Shown in pieces: positions 10,233-28,100 of a stretch of DNA of 64,000 nucleotides (position 1 is its first letter; each line of letters starts with the position of its first letter). The stretch is taken from the NCBI RefSeq assembly GCF_034479635.1, contig NZ_CP140153.1:255501-319500 (forward strand), read 5' to 3'. A program made the translations under genes and the position numbers. The stretch comes from Guyparkeria halophila (GTDB lineage: Bacteria; Pseudomonadota; Gammaproteobacteria; Halothiobacillales; Halothiobacillaceae). The notes under the pieces were generated by a model, which was not told where the DNA came from, made no database searches, and worked only from the letters and a program-made list of their open reading frames with translations.

Positions 10233-10499
10233 GGACTCTCTGCTTGAGATCTGATCCCGCTCTGCGCGCCTGGAGTCGGGCAGATGCAAGGCGTCCGTCC
10301 GACGTGGAAGGAGCTTACCTTTCCGAGGACGGCAACGCAGCAGGTGTCCGGCTCCAGGCGCGCCCTTCGGGGCCTTGCGGGTCGCCCGTGCTGGGCGTTG
10401 CGATGTCTTGACGTGGCCGCCGGCACGCTGGCGGCCACGCGCCTTCATCACGAACGACTCGCAAGGCCAGAGCGGCATCAGATCTCAAGTAGAGAGTCC
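10233..10499. repeat. Palindromic element copy 1 (267 bp) between gor and metR
   Basis: The outer arms are inverted repeats of about 32 nt with two mismatches (left arm GGACTCTCTGCTTGAGATCT). Inside are the motif CAGATGCAAGGCG (10281-10293, offset 48) and further paired arms: GCGCGCCTGGAGTCGG with CCGGCTCCAGGCGCGC, GCAACGC with GCGTTGC, and a GTGGCCGCC/GGCGGCCAC hairpin. Two other copies at 16.1 and 27.3 kb keep the same architecture and motif offset but use different stem sequences. It abuts the metR ribosome site, so part of it may be transcribed as the metR leader. Family unknown. Confidence 0.85.
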
Positions 10500-16140: not shown

Positions 16141-16407
16141 AGGAAGGTCTGCATGAATCCGATACCGCTCTGCGAGCCTTGAGTCGGGCAGATGCAAGGC
16201 GATCGTCCGCTGTGTAAGAGTTGTTCTCTTTCCAAGGGCGACAACGCAGCAGGTGCTCGACTCAAGGCTCGCCCTGCGGGGCTCGGCGAGTCGCCCGTGC
16301 TCGTCGTTGTGTCGTCTTGGCGTGGCCAACGCACGCCGGCGCCGACGCGCCTTGATCACGAATGACTCGCCGGGCCAGAGTGGCATCGGATTCATGCAGA
16401 CCTTCCT
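16141..16407. repeat. Palindromic element copy 2 (267 bp) between rsmB and the hydrolase gene
   Basis: Outer arms: AGGAAGGTCTGCATGAATCC, continuing through CGAT, are repeated inverted at the right end, ending at 16407. The CAGATGCAAGGCG motif is at 16189-16201 (offset 48, as in copy 1). Inner arms GAGCCTTGAGTCG and CGACTCAAGGCTC are perfectly complementary and differ from those of copies 1 and 3. ACAACG pairs with CGTTGT where copy 1 has GCAACGC/GCGTTGC. The flanking dinucleotide CA occurs on both sides, a possible 2-bp target duplication. The hydrolase ATG follows 22 nt after the right end. Confidence 0.87.
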
Positions 16408-26592: not shown

Positions 26593-26717
26593 CCCGGTCG
26601 GCCCCGCCCATATACAGCGCGGTGTCGCCGGACTATGATGGGGCGACTATCCCCGAGAATCCCGCTCGGGATTGACCCGTTTTGGCGGCCGCGATAGCGG
26701 CTGCCGGGAGGTTTGCA

Positions 26718-27218
26718 ATGAGGCTGACGACCAAGGGCCGCTACGCCGTGACGGCCATGCTGGACCTGGCCATCCATGACCGCGGCCAACCGACGGCACT
26801 GGCCGACATCGCGGAACGACAGTCATTGTCGCTCTCCTACCTTGAGCAGTTGTTTGCCCAGTTGCGTCGCGGGCAGCTGGTGAGCAGCGTGCGCGGCCCG
26901 GGCGGTGGCTACCAGCTGGCGCGTGAGCCGGCGCGGATCAATATCGCCGAGATCGTCCACGCGGTCGACGAGGTGGTCGATGTCACCCGCTGCGGTGGAC
27001 GCGGCAACTGCCAGGGAGGTGGCAAGTGCCTGGCTCATGACCTGTGGATGGGGCTGTCGGCCCAGATCCAGGGGTTCCTCGAGTCCATTTCGCTGGCCGA
27101 CGTGGTGGAGCAGCCCGACGTGCTCGACGTCTCCGCTCGCCAGGACGATCAGCTGCAACAGACGCGCGACGAGCGGTCCGAGGCCGTCGCTGCCGGCATG
27201 CGGGGCGTCGGTCCCTGA
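26718..27218 (+). CDS. iscR: Rrf2-family Fe-S cluster regulator IscR
   Basis: IscR senses Fe-S status with a [2Fe-2S] cluster and represses or activates cluster-assembly genes. The 166-residue protein starts [18 protein letters not shown], has the winged helix ([21 protein letters not shown]), and ligands Cys92, Cys98, Cys104 and His107 in [16 protein letters not shown], identical in spacing to E. coli IscR. ATG 26718 follows GGGAGG. Unusually, no iscS, iscU, iscA, hscB, hscA or fdx follows: the next feature is the palindromic element and then ndk. Either the isc genes are elsewhere or the cell uses another assembly system. Confidence 0.95.
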
Positions 27219-27293
27219 TCCGAGCTCCCTGCTCGATCGCCAACGCGAACAGTCTCCACGCGGTTCGCGTGGATTGTTTTCCGGTGAATCGTC

Positions 27294-27558
27294 GGAACCT
27301 CTGCACGAATAGCCAACGCCTCTGCGGGTCGCCAGGTACCCAGATGCAAGGCGTAGCGCGCCGCCCAATGGCCGGAGTCATTGGCAAGCGCTGCAACACC
27401 GCAGATGGGTGCCTGGCGGCCCGCCCTCCGGGGCTTGCCGGCTTGCCCGCCCTCGGTGTTGCCGATTCTCGGCGGGCAACGAGCCCGACTTCGAATCGAC
27501 GCCTTGATGGCGAACAAGCCGGTAAGCCAGAGGCATTGGCTATTCGTGCAGAGGTTCC
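27294..27558. repeat. Palindromic element copy 3 (265 bp) between iscR and ndk
   Basis: Outer arms: GGAACCTCTGCACGAATAGC at the left end are repeated inverted at the right end, through CCAA with one mismatch. CAGATGCAAGGCG is at 27341-27353 (offset 47). Inner arms GGTCGCCAGGTACCCA and TGGGTGCCTGGCGGCC pair, AACACCG pairs with CGGTGTT, and a perfect hairpin AGCGC...CCAATG/CATTGG...GCGCT lies between. The stem sequences differ from copies 1 and 2 but the plan is the same. The element lies exactly where relatives carry iscSUA-hscBA-fdx. Confidence 0.87.
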
Positions 27559-27575
27559 TTAAACTATCGCGCTTT

Positions 27576-27604
27576 GCTGTCGCTCATCCCCGGTGAGCGA
27601 CAGC
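27576..27604 (+). terminator. Strong hairpin upstream of ndk, probable terminator
   Basis: GCTGTCGCTCA pairs perfectly with TGAGCGACAGC around a 7-nt loop and is followed by a T-rich but interrupted tract. It could end the iscR transcript, or form part of the ndk leader. Confidence 0.55.
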
Positions 27605-27674
27605 TTCCTGTTTCCGTTTTCTTTTTCACGTTTCACCGGGGCGGAATGATCCCGCCCGATCAGGAGATAACTTC

Positions 27675-28100
<426 letters not shown>

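Follow-up and report, generated by a model that had tools for sequence, protein, structure and literature searches.

The iscR-ndk interval of Guyparkeria halophila records what are, in all probability, two unrelated events at one site: an older loss of isc genes and the later insertion of a MITE. The window, i.e. the whole stretch of 64,000 nucleotides that was analysed, is part of a single contig of 2,452,836 bp. Within it, iscR (positions 26718–27218, forward strand) encodes IscR1, a 166-aa orphan regulator standing at the ancestral isc site with intact ligands, and ndk (27675–28100, forward strand) forms the right border of the slot. Since iscR ends at 27218 and ndk starts at 27675, the segment 27219–27674 singled out in the initial annotation matches the gap exactly. 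This gap, the vacated isc slot, measures 183–205 bp in Guyparkeria lacking the element. The layout had also been described correctly, with iscR followed just by a 265-bp element, a hairpin and ndk. The element (MITE copy 3, 27294–27558) is predicted to form a three-way junction overall and is bounded by 31-bp terminal inverted repeats, the left at 27294–27324 (forward strand) and the right at 27528–27558 (reverse strand), which are 97% complementary. The right copy of a TTAA target duplication follows at 27559–27562, and a terminator-like hairpin lies between the element and ndk (27576–27604, forward strand). MITE copies 1 and 2 are located at 10233–10499 and 16142–16406, and two matches to the element end motif were counted in the window, where 0.00 would be expected. 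The surroundings correspond to the usual isc neighbourhood, with trmJ-cysE upstream and rlmN-pilW-rodZ-ispG-hisS downstream.

The close relatives of the window's genome (G000) in the named collection are assemblies labelled Guyparkeria and Halothiobacillus. In the following, g1 denotes Guyparkeria, g4 the Halothiobacillus-like genomes, and g2 and g3 two other genera of the family. IscU, HscB and IscS were found over the cut-off in none of the 11 g1 and none of the 10 g4 genomes, and in all six g2/g3 genomes. Judged by IscS, IscU and HscB, Guyparkeria is thus without an ISC system; judged by SufBCDS, it possesses a SUF system. Weaker IscU-like matches, placed within longer frames, were seen in G013 and G017, which also carry NifS-like IscS matches. 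SufB exceeded the cut-off in 10/11 g1, 10/10 g4 and 0/6 g2/g3 genomes, the single g1 exception being G004, an assembly that is 64% complete. In a quick tree of 29 rows, SufB sequences of g1 and g4 make up one clade (SH-aLRT 100).

A search through the window's genome disclosed a complete suf operon at another locus and, as in the rest of the genus, no isc partner genes. The operon is ordered regulator-sufB-sufC-sufD-sufS-sufT-Rieske-type ferredoxin-sufA, followed by a probable sufE, named from its reading frame, and its regulator matches TIGR02944 with 137.9 bits (cut-off 110.65). In Guyparkeria the operon is unlinked to the iscR-ndk slot. The only TIGR02006 match in the genome is SufS of this operon (G000:C1:1388095-1389018) and, being the sole match to the IscS model, SufS may also need to supply tRNA thiolation. 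An inverted GTAC-n-GTAC motif (CCGTACCGTTTTAGTACTTTTAA and like sequences) was observed upstream of the suf regulator in all three Guyparkeria and both Halothiobacillus loci inspected (L193, L194, L197, L195, L196); going by its sequence, it is a possible candidate for the operator of this regulator.

Slot contents were surveyed in 103 loci (80 named, 20 from family relatives and 3 distant, some named loci duplicating genomes of the relatives), using cysE or iscR as the left border and ndk-rlmN as the right. The gene ndk was reached in 48 of these loci; in the other 55, the sequence ends 172 to 7000 bases past iscR. In the distant genome G033 the slot contains iscS-iscU-iscA-hscB-hscA-fdx. The order iscA-hscB-hscA-fdx-iscX was found in all four g2/g3 loci (L077-L080; the genes of L077 were read one by one) and in five named loci, and iscS-iscA-hscBA-fdx-iscX in L182. 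Reduced contents also occur, with iscA only in L162, L185 and L189 and iscS only in L165. Every g1 and g4 locus that reaches ndk is without any isc gene. Presence of isc genes in the G033 and g2/g3 slots indicates that the iscR-ndk slot formerly held isc in this family. Two results uphold the loss proposed in the initial annotation: between matching neighbours, G033 carries a full isc set and the family's four outgroup loci carry iscA-hscBA-fdx-iscX, and Guyparkeria has no IscU, HscB or IscS over the cut-off. This loss is real, old and common to Halothiobacillus.

Compared with the gammaproteobacterial operon iscR-iscSUA-hscBA-fdx-iscX-ndk, Guyparkeria retains the left and right neighbours as in G033, but every isc gene except iscR is gone and the genus is SUF-only. 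In other gammaproteobacteria (G037 and G054), the slot holds iscA plus sufBCDSU, an apparent in-place exchange of ISC for SUF (L199, L201). Guyparkeria resembles these two genomes in that SUF replaces ISC beside an iscR lineage, and differs from them in that SUF is unlinked to the slot and has its own TIGR02944 regulator.

A tree of cysE, Ndk and RlmN groups the family (98/98), Guyparkeria with Halothiobacillus (100/100) and g2 with g3 (78/60). Elements of the system also reside at a second locus, which in g2/g3 reads DUF1249-iscR2-iscS-iscU. The Halothiobacillus DUF1249 loci keep iscR2 and are devoid of iscSU in all eight loci read, and in Guyparkeria iscR2 is absent as well (7/7 loci read); a search for DUF1249 gave no match in G022 or G024. 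Halothiobacillus iscR2 clusters with iscR2 of the iscSU-bearing g2/g3 (100/97). In g2/g3, IscR2 encoded beside iscSU (L277, L278, L279) is without any cluster cysteine and, to judge from this sequence, is possibly a permanently apo regulator. Halothiobacillus IscR2 has two or three cysteines in the ligand stretch, with spacing unlike that of IscR. Given the fossil iscR2, the simplest history is loss in the ancestor of g1 and g4 from an already split isc; as the g2+g3 grouping is weak (78/60), the split-isc ancestor is deduced from parsimony and from this fossil. By such comparison, the family ancestor would have had isc divided between an iscR1-[iscA-hscBA-fdx-iscX]-ndk slot and a DUF1249-iscR2-iscSU locus. 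Guyparkeria and Halothiobacillus would descend from an ancestor that then turned to SUF, its isc genes disappearing from the slot and from the second locus alike. Orphan iscR1 and iscR2 would have remained, iscR2 being lost later in Guyparkeria.

Examination of the gap in relatives reveals when the element arrived. Adjacency of iscR and ndk without isc is shared by all 10 Guyparkeria and all 7 Halothiobacillus loci examined. The element is present in the gap in three Guyparkeria (G000, G002, G007); the other seven have gaps of 183–205 bp, and none of the seven Halothiobacillus loci carries it. The gaps of G013 and G023 are about 1.3 kb long, that of G013 containing unrelated small ORFs. Alignment disclosed a clean empty site, ..TCG/TTAA/ACTATC, and a filled site in G002 and G007 that reads TCAA, element, TTAA. 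The left duplication has decayed in all three bearers, and in G000 it has additionally lost two bases and reads TC. The site is empty in G001 although this genome nests with the bearers in the tree (at forks of 100/98 and 81/92, called weakly supported), which requires a single event of loss, exchange or precise excision. The alignment indicates that an IS5-like MITE without transposase entered TTAA of the already closed gap in a small Guyparkeria clade, with duplication of 4 bp; its movement would have depended on a transposase of IS5 type, acting in trans and since gone from the genome.

The initial annotation had read the coincidence of element and missing genes as a sign that isc was lost or moved here, perhaps with the element as recombination substrate. 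On this view, copies of the element recombined, the isc block was thereby removed or relocated, and a single copy stayed behind as a scar. The position of the element in the slot and the at least 43 copies in the genome speak for this, but it is very improbable: the adjacency exists without the element in 7/10 Guyparkeria and 7/7 Halothiobacillus loci, isc was gone before these genera split, and a deletion scar would not account for a precise empty site with duplication of 4 bp on filling. Element-free adjacency in relatives is an outcome that the initial annotation had itself named as refuting its proposal. Of that reading, loss at the site stands and the element as its cause falls; element-free adjacency in relatives and precise TTAA empty sites rule out the element as the deletion substrate, and on present evidence its role in isc loss is excluded. 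It is equally hard to credit that the adjacency is primitive, the family having at no time had isc beside ndk, as the bare slots of the two nearest genera, Guyparkeria and Halothiobacillus, might suggest: isc genes in the slots of all four g2/g3 loci and of G033 rule this out, and orphan iscR1 and iscR2 would be hard to account for.

A block within the gap upstream of ndk, TGGATTGTT...TTAAACTATCGCGCTTT, is present with few changes in 10/10 Guyparkeria species and may be a candidate ndk promoter; a scan of the iscR-ndk gap for the sigma-70 promoter consensus gave no match. Insertion of MITE copy 3 divides this genus-conserved block, and ndk expression may change as a result. If transcribed, this copy would be predicted to fold into a highly stable structure with three arms in the iscR-ndk interval.

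The element represents a new MITE family of IS5-like character, in which covariation of the arms stands out. Copies were found in at least 43 separate places in the genome, a lower bound because scoring covered 40 candidates out of 75 in one search and 40 out of 89 in another. Search through relatives, with 13 candidates scored per genome, located the element in 10/11 g1 genomes, in G015 and G021 of g4 and marginally in G024, amounting to 13 of 57 genomes. Fifty full copies are 257–273 bp long and their ends read GGAANNTCTGCACGAAT; no transposase ORF lies inside the element. The terminal 22 bp match on average in 94% of positions within a copy versus 71% between copies. The copies are flanked by a 4-bp YTAR target duplication, exact in 12/50 and with at least three of four positions in 28/50, compared with maxima of 10 and 26, respectively, in 2000 shuffles. 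Base counts over the 50 copies are Y 43, T 36, A 39 and R 48 for the left duplication and Y 47, T 39, A 31 and R 45 for the right. A 2-bp TA duplication was dropped, anchored ends having given 4-bp direct repeats. All 28 full copies of the window's genome are intergenic according to home-made gene calls (16 tandem, 7 divergent, 3 convergent and 2 of undetermined arrangement), and insertion polymorphism among congeners testifies to past mobility. One copy (L005/L011, G000:C1:2091438-2091771) is 332 bp long, and the two parts of it that match the element are separated by an internal insertion of about 67 bp.

Size below 500 bp without transposase, terminal inverted repeats, target duplication with empty sites and dispersed intergenic copies are thus all features of this family, as expected for prokaryotic MITEs. 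Chunjie, Correia, ERIC and QMITE2, as presented in the available portion of PMC10969869, are likewise under 500 bp, with inverted repeats, target duplication and no transposase, and share many intergenic copies and a stable predicted transcript fold. The Guyparkeria element differs from them, as they are described there, in being GC-rich instead of AT-rich, in its wholly paired three-way junction and in element-wide double compensation between copies. No known RNA family matched the element.

The ends of the element begin with GGAA.., in which we presume a resemblance to IS5. PF05598 and PF01609 had no match in G000, IS5-type transposases are absent from most g1 genomes, and among the genus and family IS copies examined, no PF05598/PF01609 transposase locus has paired ends like those of the element. 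No autonomous IS with the element ends was found, and the link to IS5 thus stands on the duplication and the shape of the ends. An end pair in L009, 1465 bp apart, was considered as a partner and rejected, as it encloses an ORF that reads as alpha/beta-hydrolase-like. YTAR is the target duplication of IS5 according to the accessible part of PMC10359306, and in its 4-bp YTAR-like duplication the element is like this family; it is unlike it in that no IS5-type transposase accompanied by the element ends was detected.

Either strand is predicted to fold almost entirely into a three-way junction, with z of -14.7 and -13.1. In 28 copies of the window's genome, changes on both sides were observed in 53/90 pairs and 95.4% of cells pair, a percentage inflated by taking the structure from the same alignment, which affects double changes less. 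The covariation score is 0.451, versus at most 0.082 after sliding by 1–3 columns. In 13 same-site comparisons between species, drawn from 106 full copies at selected loci (copies without two recognisable ends were dropped), 111 pairs have changed, of which only 5 show double compensation and 50 no longer pair. As non-orthologous copies give pair counts that depend on one another, 38 disjoint nearest different-site pairs were used in their place; at divergence of up to 12.5%, 55 of 364 changed pairs are doubly compensated (p = 0.003, with divergence not exactly matched). In the widest different-site comparisons the share reaches two thirds, in pair counts that are non-independent. Much compensation between copies and little at the same site suggest that arm symmetry arises in the mobile lineage and not in place.

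Several processes can be envisaged behind this symmetry. A possible one, put forward tentatively, is replication-linked template switching, in which one arm is copied from another, either in mobile source copies or everywhere. Such a mechanism is described for RNA hairpins in the accessible part of PMC8794818, and neighbouring pairs change together in runs between subfamilies; but double changes are nearly absent at the same site, which makes it doubtful that arms are often copied in resident elements, and three iscR-ndk orthologues show apparent stepwise G-U intermediates. With somewhat less confidence, and as a doubtful proposition so far, the mobility cycle of the MITE may itself enforce symmetry by including a stage as a hairpin or folded single strand, at which arm templates arm or arms must pair for the element to move. 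If so, compensation would build up over three arms in transposing copies and resident copies would just decay, an element-wide homogenisation beyond a standard cut-and-paste transposase, which needs ends only.

Selection at every insertion site for a structure with a function in RNA or DNA, with the iscR-ndk copy recruited as a 3' structure, is unlikely. It would agree with the 53/90 pairs changed on both sides and with the iscR-ndk copies of G000, G007 and G002, whose substitutions nearly all preserve pairing of the consensus structure, some via G-U steps; but the preponderance of broken over doubly compensated pairs at the same site opposes it, and the pairing excess of the iscR-ndk copy is not significant with individual folds (p = 0.06). 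Strong in-place selection on this copy, suggestive on the consensus structure, was rejected on that account. The copy of G002 has diverged from that of G000 by 10.9%, compared with 4.7% for its right flank, and may therefore have undergone conversion by another copy.

What remains at the emptied site is the regulator. The intact cluster ligands ascribed to it earlier were confirmed: IscR1 is an Rrf2 protein with a C-C-C-H ligand set, spaced C-x5-C-x5-C-x2-H. The NCBIfam call is IscR, at a TIGR02010 score of 201.4 bits, just below the curated line of 207.55 and well over the scores of other specific Rrf2 models. Orthologues at the equal position in nine congeners are 85–98% identical. Scanning with a type-1 consensus that we assume to be that of IscR, we found no palindrome with up to one mismatch in the whole Guyparkeria genome; the reversed control gave 1 and 1. 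G011, which retains isc, has a perfect type-1 palindrome immediately upstream of iscR, and G037 has one with a single mismatch. The suggestion in the initial annotation that IscR may regulate suf finds no backing in these results, as suf has an Rrf2-type regulator of its own and the genome holds no such palindrome. Two conserved hairpins were also observed in the Guyparkeria iscR leader (26650–26720), directly before the ribosome site, with both-sided changes in 3/14 pairs over 10 species.

Neither the repeat family nor isc loss in Guyparkeria was reported in the literature searched, and SUF, isc and transposases go unmentioned in the available part of PMC9032823. The repeat family makes arm matching in large palindromic MITEs directly testable. 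In the iscR-ndk slot, a coincidental mobile element could be told apart from the cause of a deletion, which is a common trap. The emptied loci, with orphan iscR genes left as fossils, provide a dated case of a gammaproteobacterial lineage giving up ISC for SUF, in which the regulon of IscR can now be tested in an isc-free background.
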